In this document: piece by piece, positions 7,753 to 42,323 of the stretch
Numbering within the stretch: position 1 is the first letter of the stretch
Layout of the letters: each line of letters starts with the position of its first letter
IMG/VR virus record: IMGVR_UViG_3300042477_000051
Location: 1 to 42,435 of that record
From: a virus
Direction: 5' to 3' (one strand)
Length of the DNA stretch: 42,435 nucleotides
Translations under genes and position numbers: made by a program
The notes under the pieces: generated by a model
Databases searched by the model: none
Seen by the model: only the letters and a program-made list of their open reading frames with translations
What the model was told of the DNA's origin: nothing

Positions 7753-7943
7753 TGGGGCTGTTCGCTTTCCGGCGACTGCGTGAAGCCGAGGCTGCCTCTT
7801 CGGAGGTGGCCTCTCTTTCTATGCCAGAGCCTAAACTAGACATACCGGAGGTGCCCACGGATGCCAATAGCAATCGACGCAACAGTGGGCGGCGCAAACG
7901 CCAACAGCTACCTGACGCTAGCAGCAGCGCAAGCGATCATTGA
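7752..7943 (+). CDS. Small hypothetical protein in the head module
   Basis: A 63-residue protein starting at ATG 7752, sharing one base with the previous stop. It begins MGLFAFRRLREAEAASSEVA, continues with a Pro/Glu-rich stretch and ends in a basic NRRNSGRRKRQQ tail. I recall similar short FRRLRE-type proteins in phage head modules. Its last 83 bases overlap the next gene in another frame, which has its own strong GGAGG at 7847-7851. The function is unknown; low complexity suggests an unstructured protein. Confidence 0.6.
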   Translation: MGLFAFRRLREAEAASSEVASLSMPEPKLDIPEVPTDANSNRRNSGRRKRQQLPDASSSASDH

Positions 7944-8424
7944 CGGCTTTGTGCAGGATGCTGATGTCACAGCATGGGCATCGGCTACCACTGACCAAAA
8001 GAACCGGGCACTCTTTACCGCGACGCAACGGCTAGACCGCGAGCGGTTCCTTGGCGCACGGGCGACCGATACGCAGGCGCTGCAGTGGCCGCGTACTGGC
8101 GTGCGCAAGCCTGACACTTACATCAACACCTATGCGGTTGGATTCCCGTTTCGCATTACTACTGATTATTTCACTGATACCGAAATTCCAACGCAAATTC
8201 AGTACGCGCAAACCGTGCTAGCGGTATTCCTCCATAACAACACCGACGCGCTTGGGCTTAGCGGATTGGAGGATTACAAGAATGTCAAGATCGGCAGCCT
8301 TGACGTGACGCCTAATCTTGGCTATGGCGCCGTTGGCGCTGATAAGGTGCCACCGCTGATGGAGCGTTACCTGACAGGGCTTAGAATAAGTGGACCTGGT
8401 AACGTTGCAATTCGCCGGAGCTAA
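7861..8424 (+). CDS. Head-tail connector protein (adaptor, DnaT-like fold family)
   Basis: A 187-residue protein. The N-terminus (IDATVGGANANSYLTLAAAQ) and RALFTATQRLDRERFLGARA near residues 48-67 match a phage adaptor family whose fold was named after DnaT. Such proteins bind below the portal as the first ring of the connector. GGAGG at 7847-7851 is nine bases before the ATG, which fixes this start. The downstream order (structural proteins, stopper, HK97 gp10-like, tail terminator, tube) is that of a siphovirus neck. DNA replication is not implied by the family name. Confidence 0.8.
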   Translation: MPIAIDATVGGANANSYLTLAAAQAIIDGFVQDADVTAWASATTDQKNRALFTATQRLDRERFLGARATDTQALQWPRTGVRKPDTYINTYAVGFPFRITTDYFTDTEIPTQIQYAQTVLAVFLHNNTDALGLSGLEDYKNVKIGSLDVTPNLGYGAVGADKVPPLMERYLTGLRISGPGNVAIRRS

Positions 8425-8426
8425 TC

Positions 8427-8990
8427 ATGCCTGATCTTATTTCTCCTGCCGGCGGTGACATTGGCCTACAGCGTAGGTCTGACGGCAGTTATGCAAGCCT
8501 TGTGGCAGGCGGCGCCTACCGCACTACTGCCACTATTACCCGTCCATCTAACACCACCGCCTACACCGCTGGGGACGTGGTTGGGGACACAGGGGGTTCT
8601 GCCATCATCACCCTGGCCAACGCGGGCCCAAGTGGGGGCTTTGTGCTAATCCAGAGCCTGTCGTTGGTGCTTAGCGACAGCACGGTGCCCAGCGGCATGG
8701 GCGCGTTCCGGGTTCACTTGTACTCCGCTAGCCCTACCGCTATTGCGGATAACGCCGCCTTTGACCTGGTGAGCGATGAGCGGGCCACCTACATGGGCTT
8801 CATCGACCTGCCCGCCCCGCAAGATTTGGGCAGCACGCTGTACACGCAGACCGATTATCCCGGCCGGCTGGTCAAGCTAGCCGCTGCTAGCACCAGTTTG
8901 TTTGCTGAGATCGAAACCCGTGGTGCATATACCCCGGTAAGCGCAAGCACTGTTGAACTCAGGGTCAACACCCTGGAGGCTGGACTCTGA
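8427..8990 (+). CDS. Hypothetical virion structural protein
   Basis: A 187-residue protein with alternating hydrophobic/Thr-Ser pattern typical of a beta sandwich, few Lys and no Cys. Recognisable segments include ITLANAGPSGGFVLIQSLSL and FRVHLYSASPTAIADNAAFD, a pattern I have seen in structural proteins of environmental siphoviruses. It lies between the connector adaptor and a large adhesin-like protein, and shares one base with the latter. It could be the base that attaches the adhesin to the head-tail joint. That is an inference from order only. Confidence 0.65.
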   Translation: MPDLISPAGGDIGLQRRSDGSYASLVAGGAYRTTATITRPSNTTAYTAGDVVGDTGGSAIITLANAGPSGGFVLIQSLSLVLSDSTVPSGMGAFRVHLYSASPTAIADNAAFDLVSDERATYMGFIDLPAPQDLGSTLYTQTDYPGRLVKLAAASTSLFAEIETRGAYTPVSASTVELRVNTLEAGL

Positions 8991-10858
8991 TGCGCGGCTC
9001 TGCAGCGTTCCGGGCAGCAGTAGCACCTGGTGGCGTGCTGGCTGGACCATGGGTCAAGAATGAACTATGGCGTCGTGCGCGTGCAGTGCCGTCACTGGAT
9101 CTGCGCTTTGCTGATGACAAGAGCCTGACCGACGCCGTTACTGGCCAATCGCTGGTGACCTTCACCCGCGCCAGCAGCGGCACTTATGTGGGTGCTGATG
9201 GGTTGATCAAGACGGCGGTGACGAATCTGGCGCTGCAGTCGGAAGATTTTTCAACGACGTGGGGTAGCAGCTCTTACACAATTACGACTAATGCAACAAC
9301 GGCGCCCAACGGAACGGCTTCCGCTGATAAAGCGGTTAGAGACACAACAAATGCGGTTACCGCAATAAATGCAAACGTTACTGTTACTGTTTCTACAGCA
9401 TACAACTTTAGTTGTTTCGTAAAAGCCGCAGAATGGAGCAAAATTGGCCTGCGCGAAGGAAGTAGTACCGGCAACTATGTAACCTTTGACCTATCAACTG
9501 GCAGCATTATTTCGTCCTTTGTTGCCACAGGCGCCATTACCGCTTACCCCAACGGCTGGTATCGCATTTCAATGCAGATGACCACAGGGGGTGCTCAGAC
9601 CACTTATGGATTGAGAGTAATTCCACTACCTCCTTCGTACACAAGTGGAACACCAAGTTACTCATTTACAGGCGACGGCACTAGTGGTTTATTCCTCTGG
9701 GGCGCCCAACTAGAGCAGTCCAGCACGGTCGGTGAATACATCCCCACCACCAGCACGATCAACAGCGCCCCACGCTTCGACCACAACCCCACGACGGGCG
9801 AAAGCCTGGGGCTGTTGGTGGAGGAGCAGAGGACGAACCTTAGAACGTACAGCGAGGCAATCCTTTCCGCAAATCTCTACGGAACAACCAATTCAACACT
9901 AACGACCGTCAGTATTGCAAACCCATTTGGCGGAACTACTGCGTCTTTGTTTACGCTAAATGTTGGCGCAAATACTGGCAATAATACAGATGGCTTTAAT
10001 TTTGGGAGCGGAGTTACACTTGTCAACTCAACGGCACACGCTCAATTTTTATTTGTTAAGCCTGCTGGTGCTACTGTTTTAAGACTTCGCAGCAATACCG
10101 GAGGTTCACTCTTTGACTTTACGTTAACAGGTAACGGCACGGCGCCAAGTCCTTCGGCTGATCTTCAGTCTGCCGCTATTGTTCCTTTTCCAAACGGTTG
10201 GTATCGCGTTTCTTGGATTTTCACTTCAACCACTTCGGCGCCTGGAAACCGTGGCGATTATTGGACAATCAAAACTAACGTTGCTGACGGGACCAATGGC
10301 TTGTATGTAGTGGGCGCCCAACTAGAAGCCGGGGCCTTCCCCACCAGCTACATCCCCACCACCACCGCCACGGTCACCCGCAGTGCAGACGTGGCCAGCA
10401 TTAGTGGTAGCAACTTCTCTAGCTGGTATCGGCAGGATGAGGGGACGGTGTTGGTGGAGACTCGGCTTCAGTCCACAGTCGCAAGAAATGCTGCTGGTAT
10501 TGATTTGAATGATAACTCAACAAATAACAGATTAATCTTTCGGGCGTTTACGACTGGCTCATTTGATCAATACATAGCTCGCTCGGGAGGCTCTACGGTT
10601 GCAACAATCGCGAGCGCAAACATTCCCTCTCTTCTTCTAAGGAAAAGTGCCATTGCTTATAGGGTCGATGATTTTGCACTAACTGCCGAAGGGTTGGCCC
10701 CCAATACTGATACATCAGGTGCTGTTCCAGTAGGAGTTAATCAGGCGTTTATTGGGTCTGCATTATCAGGAACTGAGTTTTTAGGGGGACACATCCGCCG
10801 CCTCTGCTATTGGAACCAGCGCCTCCCGAACTCCACTTTGGAGGCAATCACCCGATGA
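8990..10858 (+). CDS. Head/neck adhesin with two carbohydrate-binding-like modules and a lectin-like end
   Basis: A 622-residue fibre-like protein. After an N-terminal segment (LDLRFADDKSLTDAVTGQSL, then FTRASSGTYVGADGLIK) there are two repeats of about 204 residues: module 1 about 78-281 and module 2 about 281-485. Each starts with a TNL..SE segment, includes NGWYRIS or NGWYRVS, and ends with GAQLE and YIPTT. This pattern is known from phage head-spike and carbohydrate-binding proteins. The last 135 residues (DEGTVLVETRLQ ... GGHIRRLCYWNQRLP) look like a concanavalin-type lectin. The module cores are clearly A/T-richer than their borders. It probably binds host or biofilm glycans. Confidence 0.75.
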   Translation: MRGSAAFRAAVAPGGVLAGPWVKNELWRRARAVPSLDLRFADDKSLTDAVTGQSLVTFTRASSGTYVGADGLIKTAVTNLALQSEDFSTTWGSSSYTITTNATTAPNGTASADKAVRDTTNAVTAINANVTVTVSTAYNFSCFVKAAEWSKIGLREGSSTGNYVTFDLSTGSIISSFVATGAITAYPNGWYRISMQMTTGGAQTTYGLRVIPLPPSYTSGTPSYSFTGDGTSGLFLWGAQLEQSSTVGEYIPTTSTINSAPRFDHNPTTGESLGLLVEEQRTNLRTYSEAILSANLYGTTNSTLTTVSIANPFGGTTASLFTLNVGANTGNNTDGFNFGSGVTLVNSTAHAQFLFVKPAGATVLRLRSNTGGSLFDFTLTGNGTAPSPSADLQSAAIVPFPNGWYRVSWIFTSTTSAPGNRGDYWTIKTNVADGTNGLYVVGAQLEAGAFPTSYIPTTTATVTRSADVASISGSNFSSWYRQDEGTVLVETRLQSTVARNAAGIDLNDNSTNNRLIFRAFTTGSFDQYIARSGGSTVATIASANIPSLLLRKSAIAYRVDDFALTAEGLAPNTDTSGAVPVGVNQAFIGSALSGTEFLGGHIRRLCYWNQRLPNSTLEAITR

Positions 10859-11139
10859 CGCACTACCTACGCTTCCCCGACGAATCCACCGGCATGGCTG
10901 CGCTGGATGCTGCTGGCCTTCTGGACGCTGACGGCCACCCCCTCACCGCCAGCCACACGCACGCGCTGGATGTGATCGGCCCCATCTACCGAGGTGGCAC
11001 CTACGACCCCGACACCGGCGAGGTAATCACCCCACCCGTCCTGCTGGAAGGCTGGCACGTCAACTACATCGGTGACTTGCCTGATGGGTGGGCAGAGTAT
11101 GCGGTGAGCCCTGAGCAGCCGGTTAGAGTCTGGCTATGA
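10855..11139 (+). CDS. Hypothetical structural-region protein
   Basis: A 94-residue protein. The start ATG 10855 forms an ATGA overlap with the adhesin stop; an upstream in-frame codon at 10810 would force a 49-base overlap and is less likely. The middle contains YDPDTGEVITPPVLLEGWHV and the C-terminus ends in VSPEQPVRVWL. It is acidic and rich in Gly and Pro, resembling small chaperone or accessory proteins encoded next to phage fibres. The role is not established. Translational coupling to the adhesin suggests that it serves it, perhaps in assembly. Confidence 0.65.
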   Translation: MTHYLRFPDESTGMAALDAAGLLDADGHPLTASHTHALDVIGPIYRGGTYDPDTGEVITPPVLLEGWHVNYIGDLPDGWAEYAVSPEQPVRVWL

Positions 11140-11477
11140 GCGTTCAACCCGGCCAGCACAATATCGCCATCCAGCGTCGGGCTGACTATGACCTTTCGCT
11201 GCAGTTTAAAGATTCCAACAATGCCAATATCAACCTGACCGGCTGGACTGCTTACGCGCAAGTGTGGAATGAAGGCCGCACCACCAAATATGCTGACTTT
11301 GCTGTTACCTACACCAACCGCTCTGCTGGTCAAATCAGCATTGCCTTGACCGATACGCAGACTGCAGGCTTTCCCAATGAAGCCTATTACGATGTTTTGT
11401 TGGAAGACTCCAGCGGCTTGCGCAACTATTACCTAGAAGGCATCGTATTCGTCTCGGAGGGCTACACAGCACCATGA
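11136..11477 (+). CDS. Hypothetical structural protein (beta-rich, baseplate-N-like)
   Basis: A 113-residue protein with four-base overlaps on both sides. The segment IAIQRRADYDLSLQFKDSNN followed by INLTGWTAYAQVW resembles the N-terminal immunoglobulin-like domain seen in phage baseplate upper proteins and in many neck-encoded proteins, where it attaches fibres to the virion. The C-terminal half (LEDSSGLRNYYLEGIVFVSE) completes a small beta sandwich. The next gene encodes a fibre-like tip, so this may be its anchor. Family membership is a judgement from pattern, not from a search. Confidence 0.65.
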   Translation: MSVQPGQHNIAIQRRADYDLSLQFKDSNNANINLTGWTAYAQVWNEGRTTKYADFAVTYTNRSAGQISIALTDTQTAGFPNEAYYDVLLEDSSGLRNYYLEGIVFVSEGYTAP

Positions 11478-12004
11478 CATCCGTAATCGTCAACGAGGCT
11501 ACCAACACAGTCACTGTTACCACGCCAGGCCCTGCAGGCCCATCTGGCGCAGCTGCAGTTATGGTGCGCGGCCAAGCCAGCAAGATGGACAGCGGCACCA
11601 TTGACATAGTTACGCAGGGCGTATATGTCACCACCGGATTGACTGCAACGCTTGACGCCAGTACTGTCAACGGCATGACGCTTGGCACAACACATGCCTT
11701 TGCATTGAAAAACACCAGCGGTAGCACAAAGCTGCTGCGTTTTTATGGCAGCATCGACGCCAAGACCGTCAGCGGCAACAACAAAGTGCTCGGCATCAAG
11801 CTGGCCAAGAACGGCACCGCCATAGATCAAACCGAATGCCGCGCCTTTACCGGCTCGGGCAACGAGGAAGCCAAGTTGGTCACCAACTGGATGATCAGCA
11901 TGGCCGCTAACGATGAAGTAGCACTGTTCATCGCCAACCACAGCAGCAACGTTGACATCACCTTTAGTCGCGGCAGACTTGTAGCCAGCGAGGTGTTTGC
12001 ATGA
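11474..12004 (+). CDS. Short fibre/tip protein with collagen-like start and jelly-roll-like end
   Basis: A 176-residue protein. Residues 1-17 make a small strand region, then TTPGPAGPSGAAA gives a very short collagen-like Gly-x-y stretch. The remainder, with SMAANDEVALFIANHSSNVD near residues 147-166, has the strand order and hydrophobic pattern of a C1q/TNF-like jelly roll, a common trimeric tip for phage adhesins. It is translationally coupled to the preceding anchor-like protein. Together they probably form a second short spike near the neck. Host glycan or protein binding is an inference. Confidence 0.65.
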   Translation: MTSVIVNEATNTVTVTTPGPAGPSGAAAVMVRGQASKMDSGTIDIVTQGVYVTTGLTATLDASTVNGMTLGTTHAFALKNTSGSTKLLRFYGSIDAKTVSGNNKVLGIKLAKNGTAIDQTECRAFTGSGNEEAKLVTNWMISMAANDEVALFIANHSSNVDITFSRGRLVASEVFA

Positions 12005-29361: not shown

Positions 29362-30294
29362 TCACGGCACATGCCGTTGATGCATACGCGCCAGACGTAA
29401 CCGTGCCGCTTGATTGTTGGTTCCAAGAGGGGTATCCGTCAGAGGGTTGCTCATCAGCATGCGGATGCGGTTAATGCCGCGTTTGTAGATGTCGCTTAGG
29501 GTTATCTTAGAGATGCCATACTCTCGTTCAAGTTGCGCCCATGTGACGGCTGGATAACATGATCGCGCTTCAATGATCGCCTTGGTCCTGTCATCGAGGT
29601 ACTGATCAACGTAACGCAGCATGATTTGCACATCTTGACTGATGTCAGTATCAACTGCATTTGGGTCTGCAATGGTGTCAATAATGCTATGGCCTTCTGA
29701 GTTGTTGATCTGCTGGTCGATGCTGGTAACGGTGTAGGTTTGCCGGAGCAGATTAGACAACTCGCCAGGGTCCATGTCGATTTCTTGTGCCACTCTGGTG
29801 ATGCTCGGTTGGTAACCAAGCTGATGGCTAAGATCCTGGATTGTGCGGTTGATCTTGTACATCGTCTCGTGCACACCAATTGGTAGCCGGATGATGGCAT
29901 CGCTGCTGATCAATGCACGCGTGATGCCTTGGCGGATCCACCAATAGGCATAGGTCGAGAACTTGTAGCCGCGGCTTGGATCGAACAGCTCAACAGCACG
30001 AGCTAGGCCGATGTTGCCCTCCTGGATCAGGTCGAGCAGCTCCATGGTCTTGTTGTTGCGCTTGTCATACCTGCGAGCGACATGCACGACGAGTTGCAAG
30101 TTGCACTGAATGAACCGCTGGCGGGCGCGTTCACCGCTGCGCTTCTCACGCTGTTCGGCGTTGGTCAGCGAGCGATCCAGTGATTGCAACTCACGCAGCC
30201 GTTGCACGCGTCTGCCGAGTTGTATCTCTTGTTGCGGTGTCAACAGTGGATACTTGGCGATACTGTTGAGATAGTCCTTGATGCTGTCAGACAT
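29362..30294 (-). CDS. Phage-encoded sigma70-family RNA polymerase sigma factor
   Basis: A 310-residue sigma factor. Region 1.2 (SIKDYLNSIAKYPLLTPQQE) spans residues 4-23, region 2 (DLIQEGNIGLARAVELFDPS and YKFSTYAYWWIRQGITRAL) spans about 60-130, and region 3 (RLPIGVHETMYKIN) follows. Region 2.4 is well kept, so -10 recognition should be normal. Region 4.2 (TWAQLEREYGISKITLSDIY, residues 251-270) has a helix-turn-helix shape but lacks the usual RERIRQIE recognition helix. A 30-residue basic tail follows. It would redirect host RNA polymerase, probably to phage late promoters. Confidence 0.93.
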   Translation of the reverse strand: MSDSIKDYLNSIAKYPLLTPQQEIQLGRRVQRLRELQSLDRSLTNAEQREKRSGERARQRFIQCNLQLVVHVARRYDKRNNKTMELLDLIQEGNIGLARAVELFDPSRGYKFSTYAYWWIRQGITRALISSDAIIRLPIGVHETMYKINRTIQDLSHQLGYQPSITRVAQEIDMDPGELSNLLRQTYTVTSIDQQINNSEGHSIIDTIADPNAVDTDISQDVQIMLRYVDQYLDDRTKAIIEARSCYPAVTWAQLEREYGISKITLSDIYKRGINRIRMLMSNPLTDTPLGTNNQAARLRLARMHQRHVP

Positions 30295-33136: not shown

Positions 33137-33336
33137 GGGTTGATGGGGGTAATGGAATTGGATTCTTCAAAGGCCAGTACATCCGCTATGGGATACCTGA
33201 CCCGCGACTCACCTAAGGGCAAGCCGAACCGGGGGACCGTGTAGTAAGACGGTCCCTGGTTACGCAACCGCTGGGATTTGATGGTGCTTGGCTTCAAGCC
33301 CCAGCGTGCTGCTAGCTGTTCAGTCGTCAGATACAA
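33133..33336 (-). CDS. Small helix-turn-helix protein (MerR/excisionase-like)
   Basis: A 67-residue DNA-binding protein. [20 protein letters not shown] is a winged helix-turn-helix of the type in MerR and excisionase-like proteins, followed by [12 protein letters not shown], the usual second part. I placed the start at TTG 33336, six bases after an AAGGAGG site; an upstream TTG at 33354 has no such site. It overlaps recT by 17 bases and ssb by four. No integrase is present, so a regulatory role is more likely than excision. Confidence 0.75.
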
Positions 33337-34075
33337 GATCAGCCTCCTTCTCAAGCATCTGCTGCAACAGCTTGTCGTGTTGCTCTTGCGTCAGGTCGCC
33401 ATCTTCTAGCCGCTTTGCCATGCGCGGTTGCAGGCTCTCGAGATCCTGCAGGCTCTTGGCTTTGGCGATGGCGGCAGCACCAGCGGTAAAGGTCTTGCTG
33501 GTGTCCTTGGCCTTGACAGCAGGTAGTGCCGGCGCGGCCTCAGTGGTGACCGTTACGGGCTCCGTCGCTTGGTCCATCTCGTCGGTGGTGTAAACGCCGG
33601 ACATGTCGGCAGGAAACGCCTTACGCAGCGCCAGTGCCTCAGAGCATTTAGCGATCATCGCGGCGGGCATCTTGGACCACAGCCCTTGGCCGGCGTTGTA
33701 GTCGGCAAAGCGGGCAACGCCAACAAACGGGTGCTGGCTGCCTTTGCGCCAGATGGTGGTCTTGGCTGCAGCCGGTGGCTTGGATGCAAGCCACACATCA
33801 CGCCAGTCGCCTTCTTCGCCACACCACTCGGTCTGGCTGCCGTCAAGCTGACCAGTGCGCTCGGCAATGGCACGGAGGCCATCAATGCCGGCTTGGATGG
33901 TCATCTTGCCGCCACGCTTGATGGCGTAGATCTGCTTGCTGAACGGATCTAGTCCAGTGCGTTGGCAGGCATAGGCAAATAGCCGCAACTCATCATTGGT
34001 GCAGCCCGGTGCAATGGTGCTGCTGATCAGTTGGACTTGGTCAGGGGTCCAGGTGGTGATTGAAACGCTGGTCAT
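33320..34075 (-). CDS. RecT/Bet-family single-strand annealing protein
   Basis: A 251-residue recombinase. The core is [40 protein letters not shown] and [20 protein letters not shown], typical of the lambda Bet/RecT family. The C-terminal 80 residues are Ala/Lys-rich and flexible, then helical. It anneals complementary single strands made by the exonuclease encoded just upstream. The two genes share one base, as exonuclease/annealase pairs usually do. SSB follows two genes later, completing the recombination set. Confidence 0.92.
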
Positions 34076-34860
34076 CAGAAGATCTCAGTTTGGATGGGAT
34101 TTGTCGCCCACTTAGGCAGGCTGATGGTATGAATGAACGTGTCGCTATAGCCAGGCCACACATTGGCGGCATGGCAACCGGCGATCACGTCCAACGCATT
34201 ATCCCGCGTGGTCCGCCCTAATGCAAGCGCATCGGCGTCCAGCTCGTACACGCCGACGGCGTGGGGGTGGGTTTTCTCGACTGCCACGAACACAAAACGC
34301 TCAGCGCCGTGCAAGCCAGCAAGGTAATGCGCCGCTTGGACGTGGTAGCCGAAAGTCGCCACGCTGCGGGCGAACGCCTGTGGGCTCGCGTCGGTAGTGG
34401 TCTTGATGTCCACCACAGTGCTGCCGTAGTACCAATCAGGACGGCACTTGCAGCGCATCCCGGTGGGCAGGTCATCCCACCAGAAGGACTGCTCGGCCTT
34501 GCCTTGCTTCAGCAATGCAGCCGCTGCACGGTGATTACGGACTGCAGCGCTCATGCCCATGGCCAGTGCCATGTCGTTGCTGGTGACCACCTCAATGCCC
34601 TCGGCCTCCATGGCCGCGGCTTGCTCCTTGCCGGCTTTGGTGTTGCGTGGTGCGCAGATGCCGTAGCGCTGCAGCAGCTCGTCTGGTTCAAGAATGGCGC
34701 AATGGGCAAGGCTGCCCAGCTTCATCGCAGCAGTCGGTTCAACCGGCTTGCGGTTGGGGTCAACGTACCGGCTCCAGTAGTGGTAAGGCGACTGCATTAC
34801 CGCCTTGAGGTGACTGGCGCTGACGGCTGAATCGGCATGGTACTGCTCGTTGCTGATCAT
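34075..34860 (-). CDS. PDDEXK exonuclease (RecE/lambda-exo type, DUF3799-like)
   Basis: A 261-residue nuclease. The catalytic set is D142 in RPDWYYG, D151-I-K153 in VVDIKTT and Q175..Y179 in [11 protein letters not shown], with [11 protein letters not shown] (H53) as the upstream motif. It probably digests one strand of DNA ends to supply RecT substrate. The start ATG overlaps the previous gene end by four bases. The length and motif spacing are normal for this family. Confidence 0.9.
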
Positions 34861-41125: not shown

Positions 41126-41286
41126 TCAACCGGCTTCATGACGCCATGGAGCACGCGCTTGCGTATGCCGCTGCCATCCGCGACAATGCTCAAGACGATC
41201 AGCAGCCAATCCCTGCTGAACTGGTCAGCTCGTTTGAAGCCGATTACAACCGCCTGGTTTCAATCCTCACCGAAGCCGCCATATGA
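41086..41286 (+). CDS. Small hypothetical helical protein
   Basis: A 66-residue acidic protein. It contains VINRLHDAMEHALAYAAAIR and PAELVSSFEADYNRLVSILT, two amphipathic helices. The start ATG 41086 gives a 40-base overlap with the preceding gene; GTG 41123 would remove the overlap but also the first 12 residues. The end overlaps dnaN by four bases, so it is coupled to the clamp. I recognise no family; a clamp or replication accessory role is only a positional guess. Confidence 0.6.
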   Translation: MDLINISAKQQPVINRLHDAMEHALAYAAAIRDNAQDDQQPIPAELVSSFEADYNRLVSILTEAAI

Positions 41287-42323
41287 AACTCATCACCACG
41301 CAGGCTGATCTCAGCCATGCGCTGCGCACCATCGCCCCAGCCATCAGCACCAGCAACAGCCACCCGATCCTGAGCTGCTGCCTGATTGCTGCCGATGGCG
41401 CAACCATGACCGTGACCGGCTTCAACCTCGACCTGGGCATCACGGTCACCGTTCCCGCAGCCGTAGACACATCTGGCACCGTGGCGTTGCCGTACCGGCT
41501 TCTGGCAGGTCTCGTGAGCCGCATGGACGACGGCGAGCCTGTGACGCTGTCAGACGGCGCTGTGACGGCTTCCAGCGGCTCCTATGGGCTTGCTGTGCAG
41601 GATGCAGCCGATTACCCCGCCATGCCGGTTGTGAAGGCTCCTAGCGCTGAGCTGGACCTGACCGCTGGCGTGCGTGCTTGCATGGCAGCCGTCAGCACCG
41701 ATGCCAGTAAGCAGATCCTCCAAGGCATCCACATGGCAGCCGGGTTCATGGAGGCCACCGACGGCCACCGGCTGATGCGTGTGCCCGTAGCGCTGCCCGA
41801 TGGCATTGACCTGGTACTACCATCTAGCACCATGAAGCTGCTGCAGGACCGCACCGTCACCGTGGCAGCAGCAACCGGCCAAGCGGTGATTGACGCCGGT
41901 GATGGCATCACCATCTACAGCCGCATCCTTGACGGCAAGTACCCCGACGTGGCAGCGCTGATCCCCACCAGCTTCGAGCACGCCATGACCATGGACCGGC
42001 ACCGGTTCACCCGATGCCTAGAACGCGTCGCGTTGATCGCTGAGGCTCACAACAATGCCGTCAAACTCACGGCAAAAGGTGGTGCGCTCACAATCACCGC
42101 CGAGGCCGATGCCAACAACGGCAAAGAGCTGATCACCTTCGAGGGAATTGCCATTGGCTCGTGGGCGTTCAACGTGCACTACCTGCTCGATGGACTGAAG
42201 GCCATGCGGCAAGCAGAGACTGTTACAATGTCGGCCAATAGTGCAACAACGCCAGTCGCGCTGAGGCCGACTAGCATGACAGAGCAGACGTATCTCATCA
42301 TGCCAATTCAAATCCGGGAGTAA
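41283..42323 (+). CDS. dnaN: DNA polymerase sliding clamp (DnaN beta-type)
   Basis: A 346-residue complete beta clamp. The three-domain plan is visible: KLITTQADLSHALRTIAPAI at the start, VSTDASKQILQGIHMAAGFM and EATDGHRLMRVPVAL in the middle domain, ILDGKYPDVAALIPTSFEHA later, and YLIMPIQIRE at the end, like the bacterial C-terminus. It encircles DNA and tethers polymerase. Few phages carry a full DnaN. The stop is only four bases before the terminase small-subunit start, so the clamp is linked to the packaging operon. It may replace the host clamp. Confidence 0.95.
   Translation: MKLITTQADLSHALRTIAPAISTSNSHPILSCCLIAADGATMTVTGFNLDLGITVTVPAAVDTSGTVALPYRLLAGLVSRMDDGEPVTLSDGAVTASSGSYGLAVQDAADYPAMPVVKAPSAELDLTAGVRACMAAVSTDASKQILQGIHMAAGFMEATDGHRLMRVPVALPDGIDLVLPSSTMKLLQDRTVTVAAATGQAVIDAGDGITIYSRILDGKYPDVAALIPTSFEHAMTMDRHRFTRCLERVALIAEAHNNAVKLTAKGGALTITAEADANNGKELITFEGIAIGSWAFNVHYLLDGLKAMRQAETVTMSANSATTPVALRPTSMTEQTYLIMPIQIRE

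Follow-up and report, generated by a model that had tools for sequence, protein, structure and literature searches.

The conserved glycine-rich motifs in the gp38 adhesins of T4-type phages are presumed sites of recombination. In these adhesins the motifs alternate with hypervariable segments (PMC12529663). Mosaic side tail fibre genes have been described for P2, P1, Mu and lambda (stf), and in the account that cites them these adhesin genes have parts in common between unrelated phages (Haggard-Ljungquist, 1992; Sandmeier, 1994, as cited in PMC3945230). Furthermore, relaxed homologous recombination has been attributed to Rad52-like phage recombinases (De Paepe, 2014, PMC3945230), and domain mosaicism within single proteins has been reported for phage receptor-binding and host-interaction proteins (Smug, 2023, PMC10684548). 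The latter study worked on the protein and HMM level, and the words "synonymous" and "linker" are absent from its main text. Mosaic adhesins and relaxed phage recombination are already known (PMC10684548, PMC3945230), while the way in which phages with little else in common can trade segments of a single gene and keep it intact is mostly open.

The locus analyzed here lies in a viral record of 42.4 kb without a host genome (IMGVR_UViG_3300042477_000051; the whole stretch of 42,435 nucleotides is called the window). It resembles gp38 in that conserved stretches alternate with variable, putative receptor-binding segments, but the exchanged units are entire domains of about 460 bp, and conservation is found in a 150-bp border between domains, the silent sites of which are kept across phage families. 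The mosaics of side tail fibre genes have mainly been attributed to phage invertases (PMC3945230), whereas no match to a resolvase/invertase family was obtained in the window. With the mosaics of De Paepe it shares homology traces at mosaic borders and the combination of a Red-type annealing protein with an exonuclease, represented in the window by RecT and an exonuclease. However, only about a third of those mosaics had homology traces, and most of these only one (PMC3945230), while in the locus described here the same border block repeatedly flanks the exchanged cores and is conserved population-wide. In the literature searched, which left most subscription journals outside, no earlier report of an interdomain border conserved at silent sites across phage families was found, and these cross-family borders are the new part of the present study.

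A sequence-only reading of the window had proposed two binding modules of 612 bp with AT-rich cores and GC-rich borders. The two repeated words on which it was based were verified: GGGCGCCCAACTAGA is present at 9700 and 10312 (15/15 bases) and TACATCCCCACCACCA at 9737 and 10349 (16/16 bases), both with a spacing of 612 bp and both within one ORF. No extra copy of either word was found in the window when up to two mismatches were allowed. At this level, two copies were obtained in 3 of 100 shuffles for the first word and in 0 of 100 for the second, and chance is an even rarer source of the repeats because both words share a joint register. The GC profile revealed 43–49% in the cores (9250–9700 and 9850–10300) versus about 62% at 9700–9850 and 10300–10450. 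The contrast (border 0.586, core 0.482) was present in all 139 complete relatives. The layout of two bordered modules, proposed for 9222–10440, was retained with slightly different limits (Table 1). The exact repeats turned out to be the common first half of two border types that part after IPTT; type B continues with RFDHNPTTGESLGLLVEEQRTN and type A with TVTRSADVASISGSNFSSWYRQDEGT. Each block of about 150 bp encodes the terminal strand of a module and a disordered linker. An nhmmer search detected only two copies of the border block in the window, both in the adhesin gene, and no silent module copies were found elsewhere in the window. The module interiors differ, as had been claimed, with a protein identity of 30% between core 1 and core 2.

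Table 1. Position and supporting evidence of the features of the adhesin locus and of the candidate recombination genes in the window.
Feature	Coordinates	Strand	Evidence or remark
Conserved upstream partner gene, 187 aa	8427..8990	+	Several exchanges use it as the left homology arm
Modular adhesin / spike-fibre gene, 622 aa (P0001)	8990..10858	+	ORF; NCBIfam NF048003 (two matches); PHROG 5939; PDB 6tb9
N-terminal anchor, aa 1–80	8990..9229	+	Homology between window and L166 ends at 9229
Exchangeable core of module 1, beta-sandwich, aa 92–242 in model	9230..9690	+	No alignment with L082 or L166
Border block B (terminal strand FLWGAQLE, disordered linker, RFDHNPTTGESLGLLVEEQRTN)	9691..9838	+	nhmmer 9684–9857, 6.5e-52
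Exchangeable core of module 2, aa 298–447 in model	9839..10311	+	NF048003 match; AlphaFold2 model
Border block A (GAQLEAGAFPTSYIPTTTATVTRSADVASISGSNFSSWYRQDEGT), leads into C-terminal domain	10312..10459	+	nhmmer 10296–10463, 4.4e-49
C-terminal LamG/ConA-like domain, aa 484–608, AT-rich, replaceable too	10460..10855	+	100% identical in L082, replaced in L166
Conserved downstream gene (dn94), 94 aa	10855..11139	+	Serves as right homology arm in swaps that include the C-terminal domain; L166 homology back at 10816
RecT-like single-strand annealing protein, candidate recombinase	33320..34075	-	phrog_2780, 7.9e-65
Exonuclease VIII-like (RecE-type) exonuclease	34075..34860	-	phrog_412, 7.2e-90

The adhesin matched the NCBIfam family NF048003 (GTA_spike_fiber, phage head spike fibre domain) in two stretches (1.2e-64), and the score of the whole protein, 218.2 bits, was above the curated cut-off of 36 bits. 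It also matched PHROG 5939 (tail protein; 6.5e-106), while a Pfam-A search of the protein yielded no match. The relative in the PDB was the head spike fibre Rcc01080 of RcGTA (6tb9; phmmer 7.9e-24, and 1.4e-50 with a profile of 41 relatives), followed by phage baseplate and fibre proteins, with related domains in E217 gp45 and Pa193 baseplate proteins. The AlphaFold2 model (mean pLDDT 78) contained both modules and a third beta-rich domain (residues as in Table 1), with disordered linkers at aa 256–278 and 460–476. Foldseek matched CBM40, laminin-G, phage baseplate proteins and ConA-like phage proteins. The family match and the CBM40/LamG-like folds thus back the earlier reading of the modules as predicted binding modules. 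RcGTA head fibres let the particles attach to capsular polysaccharide of R. capsulatus (PMC7296036, PMC10218006), and therefore the protein is likely to be a sugar-binding adhesin, by analogy with its family. The window adhesin and Rcc01080 have module fold and sequence family in common. However, RcGTA has a single fibre protein of 325 aa with a head-anchoring (I/L)-G-L-G-L N-terminus (PMC7296036), whereas in the window adhesin a different anchor is followed by two modules and a LamG-like domain. The gene is located between the head-tail adaptor Ad1 and a gene at the head-closure position, and the PHROGs label is tail; the protein may be placed on either the head or the tail. The anchor is common to otherwise different proteins, e.g., gp11 of cyanophage S-B28 (67% over aa 24–87).

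The major capsid protein of the window was 86% identical to that of Cyanophage KBS-S-2A, 81% to that of Synechococcus phage S-H1 and 69% to those of Prochlorococcus siphophages. Therefore, the host is probably a picocyanobacterium, and the phage probably a cyanosiphovirus. The phage encodes a sigma factor of the RpoD/SigA type (29362–30294, minus strand), with a best match to a cyanobacterial RpoD-like subfamily model that stayed under its cut-off, and a DNA polymerase III beta subunit (sliding clamp; 41283–42323, plus strand), which was over the NCBIfam cut-off. The region around the adhesin gene (7861–12004) is a hypervariable slot, which holds between 0 and about 3.5 kb of unrelated fibre-like genes in phages with 85–100% identical capsid proteins. 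Among 80 records selected by this capsid identity, most were devoid of the upstream 187-aa gene, the adhesin and the downstream genes between Ad1 and the gene at 12001, and in the isolate S-H1 the slot is occupied by an annotated tail fibre gene. It was considered that the upstream 187-aa protein could be a counterpart of the RcGTA spike base protein, but this was rejected, as no relative was found in the PDB.

Relatives from IMG/VR were compared with respect to module exchange, and phages that are 94–99% identical on either side of the gene were found to have unalignable cores and recognizable borders. Colinear slow divergence without exchange, which the sequence-only reading had named as the observation that would speak against it, was looked for in these relatives, and this attempt at refutation failed. 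In blastn comparisons, both sides of the contig L082 matched the window with about 97% identity. The match broke off within the upstream gene at about 8740 and was restored at 10423, inside border A; beyond this breakpoint the sequences were identical at first and 97% identical overall. A contig from another metagenome (L169) had the same arrangement and matched L082 over the junctions with 99.7% identity, and thus the junction was assembled twice. In L166, with flanks 94% identical to those of the window, homology ended at the end of the anchor (9229) and restarted at 10816. Inside the gene it was confined to border B (9692–9838, 94.6%) and border A (10312–10459, 84%), i.e., all three domains were replaced and the joints retained. 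That the entire gene descends from a recent common ancestor was rejected, as the cores cannot be aligned.

This pattern was quantified with 24 phage pairs that had replaced cores and at least 90% identity in both flanks. The mean coverage was 0.11 for cores and 0.73 for borders, and it was higher for the borders in each of the 45 ordered comparisons. The gene set had first been cleared of near-identical, redundant members, so that the pair counts give no exchange frequency, and the pairs and genes compared are partly non-independent. The clustered ends of similarity in the gene interior fell into borders in 130 of 200 cases, while 53.9 were expected and the maximum of 2000 random placements was 76. 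In addition, 15 pairs had cores in common (at least 250 bp with at least 88% identity) although neither flank could be aligned. A recently exchanged segment between stretches of pre-existing homology, which defines a homologous recombination-trace mosaic in the sense of De Paepe, was thus found. In near-identical pairs the identity of border A (0.77–0.92) was lower than that of the flanks, indicating that borders are often replaced together with the module. Of 141 complete genes, 77 had one full module before border A, 45 had two, and a few had three or more blocks; this variation is as unequal crossing-over at the borders would give.

The exact 31-base border pattern was detected in 78 IMG/VR stretches. 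Among 34 border-carrying records tested, 29 had no match to the capsid protein of the window, and 5 encoded a T7-type RNA polymerase. One of these, L008, was 96.7% identical to the window in border B (over 153 bp) and 90.5% in border A; outside the borders, identity was restricted to the anchor (76%) and a part of the downstream gene (71%), and the rest of the locus could not be aligned. Cultured phages had only weak and partial border matches of 76–83%. Matches to the border block were also found in contigs binned to an alphaproteobacterial (L162, 2e-35), a Methylomonas (L163, 1e-16) and a Parcubacteria MAG (L164, 3e-15), which may be mis-binned phage contigs or prophages.

For an unbiased codon analysis, genes were collected by protein-level searches only, which resulted in 185 nonredundant ORFs with 161 border instances. 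In the GAQLE motif, leucine was encoded by CTA in 84% and alanine by GCC in 86% of the cases, compared with 11 and 21% elsewhere in the same genes; in the YIPTT motif, ATC was used for isoleucine in 93% and CCC for proline in 78%, compared with 35 and 23%. Codon homozygosity exceeded the background only from about 2 codons before GAQLE to about 29 codons past YIPTT. The identity of fourfold degenerate sites between phages was 0.69 in the ten motif codons and 0.59–0.63 in the next 30 codons of types A and B, versus 0.30 in the cores on either side, 0.33 in the conserved GWYR core motif and 0.36 in the upstream gene. It was also raised in the anchor and dn94 (0.50), and the few ltfc/tf176 relatives reached 0.68–0.71. 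The silent-site identity of the borders stayed at about 0.55–0.7 over most of the range of the neighbours (0.1–0.6). With the upstream gene at either 0.1 or 0.6 it was about 0.64–0.66, while it rose gently from about 0.5–0.6 to 0.7–0.8 when dn94 or the anchor was the yardstick, with 0.37–0.6 in the most diverged pairs. The borders thus appear to be nearly, if not perfectly, decoupled from the divergence of the neighbouring genes. Half of random phage pairs shared an exact border run of at least 20 bp and 15–25% one of at least 30 bp, compared with none for the cores; the minimum for Red-beta recombination is quoted as about 30 bp (PMC3945230). The same GAQLE motif is written with other codons in RcapMu, S-TIM54, P12024S and Manatee Spring phage, showing that the protein does not dictate the border DNA.

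The strongest silent conservation resides in two short words, TGGGGCGCCCAACTAGA, which holds the palindrome GGGCGCCC, and TACATCCCCACCACC. Together with the near independence from the genome background, this would fit a functional nucleic-acid site, e.g., a site for a site-specific recombinase or nuclease, an RNA structure or an overlapping gene, in place of a homology arm. However, the borders did not exceed shuffles in RNA structure (mean z +0.59 and -0.73), a search of the border for a conserved alternative reading frame found none, and serine recombinase, tyrosine integrase and reverse transcriptase families are absent from the window. In addition, the conservation spans about 45 codons, falls at both edges and is not centred on one site. 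A functional site is therefore regarded as rather improbable. Exchange driven by an invertase or serine recombinase was rejected (no PF00239 match in the window), as were an integrase (no family match in the window) and a diversity-generating retroelement (no PF00078 match and no second copy of the region in the window).

As nearly all sequences are metagenome contigs, chimeric joins are possible in some cases, and it had to be considered whether the swaps and shared borders could largely be mis-joins at repeated 150-bp tracts. Several contigs indeed start or end near border blocks (L018 begins at 10343, L047 and L050 end there, and L031 and L078 end or begin close by), as is expected where an assembler meets many variants with one common tract; such ends could also mark module pools. 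Moreover, L008/L047 (IMGVR_UViG_3300045999_005825) and L052/L078 (IMGVR_UViG_3300027621_000012) are each the two ends of one T7-like contig of about 44 kb, and both ends lie in the adhesin gene. They carry different alleles with similar anchor and border and a different core, which points either to variants that coexist in the population and meet at an assembly loop, or to a genome with two adhesin genes. An artefact is nevertheless very unlikely, as the L082 junctions recur in the second metagenome, many swaps break at different places (9229, 10423, 10816), including the outer genes, and mis-assembly cannot produce silent-site conservation.

Similarly little credence, and slightly less, is given to selection of the border codons for translation, i.e., pausing at a domain boundary so that folding can proceed co-translationally. 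CTA is an uncommon leucine codon in the adhesin genes and is located at the domain end, but the other fixed codons (GGC, GCC, TAC, ATC, CCC, ACC) do not belong to the rare codons there, and the codons of the downstream linker are fixed too. Divergence of the cores in place under diversifying selection, with borders held by purifying selection on the protein and without any exchange, can practically be dismissed: the cores do retain the family fold and a few residues, but they lack a DNA alignment between flanks of 97–99% identity, phages whose flanks are unrelated can have the same or nearly the same core, and protein selection does not fix silent sites, as the other GAQLE codons of RcapMu, S-TIM54 and others illustrate.

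The reading that is preferred, and considered quite probable, is that the product of the gene is a carbohydrate-binding virion adhesin with several domains, made by a picocyanobacterial siphovirus, and that its cores are swapped by homologous recombination with the borders of about 150 bp as arms. The earlier suggestion that the borders serve as homology for module swapping is supported by the clustering of breakpoints in them, their kept silent sites and the recurrence of cores with non-matching flanks. Modular anatomy, core exchange, border-enriched breakpoints and silent-site decoupling are visible in the genomes compared, and from this pattern we infer that recombination enzymes act at the borders. 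Co-infecting phages would exchange their binding cores, with the last module strand and the flexible linker as inner homology arms, and the anchor or upstream gene and the downstream gene as outer arms. The borders would be copied to and fro in a pool that spans phage families, and therefore their silent sites would stay homogeneous while the cores diversify. Glycan binding by the cores and selection for recombinable borders would be part of this scenario. On sequence data, homogenization by recombination and direct selection on the border DNA are not fully separable.

In the window, the Rad52/Red-like recombinase of the De Paepe mosaics is represented by the RecT-like and ExoVIII-like proteins, which are the candidate enzymes here; in other phages, other phage or host enzymes may act. 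Among the 34 border-carrying records, RecT was found in 3 (5 when weak matches are counted) and ERF in 2. RecT is therefore too rare to be the general agent, and a universal role of RecT was not supported.

Taken together, the joint between domains has become visible as a DNA object, as silent sites are kept in the strand-plus-linker while they approach saturation elsewhere in the gene and in several neighbours, and the joint occurs both in siphoviruses and in phages that encode a T7-type RNA polymerase. Homology-guided domain exchange thus becomes directly testable, and the border offers a DNA handle to locate adhesin module pools in metagenomes. With about even chances, the borders might be part of a community-wide cassette system, in which unrelated phage families on aquatic, probably picocyanobacterial, hosts would keep a common silent-site-conserved border of about 150 bp as an exchange standard, maintained because only genomes with matching borders could draw on the shared module pool.
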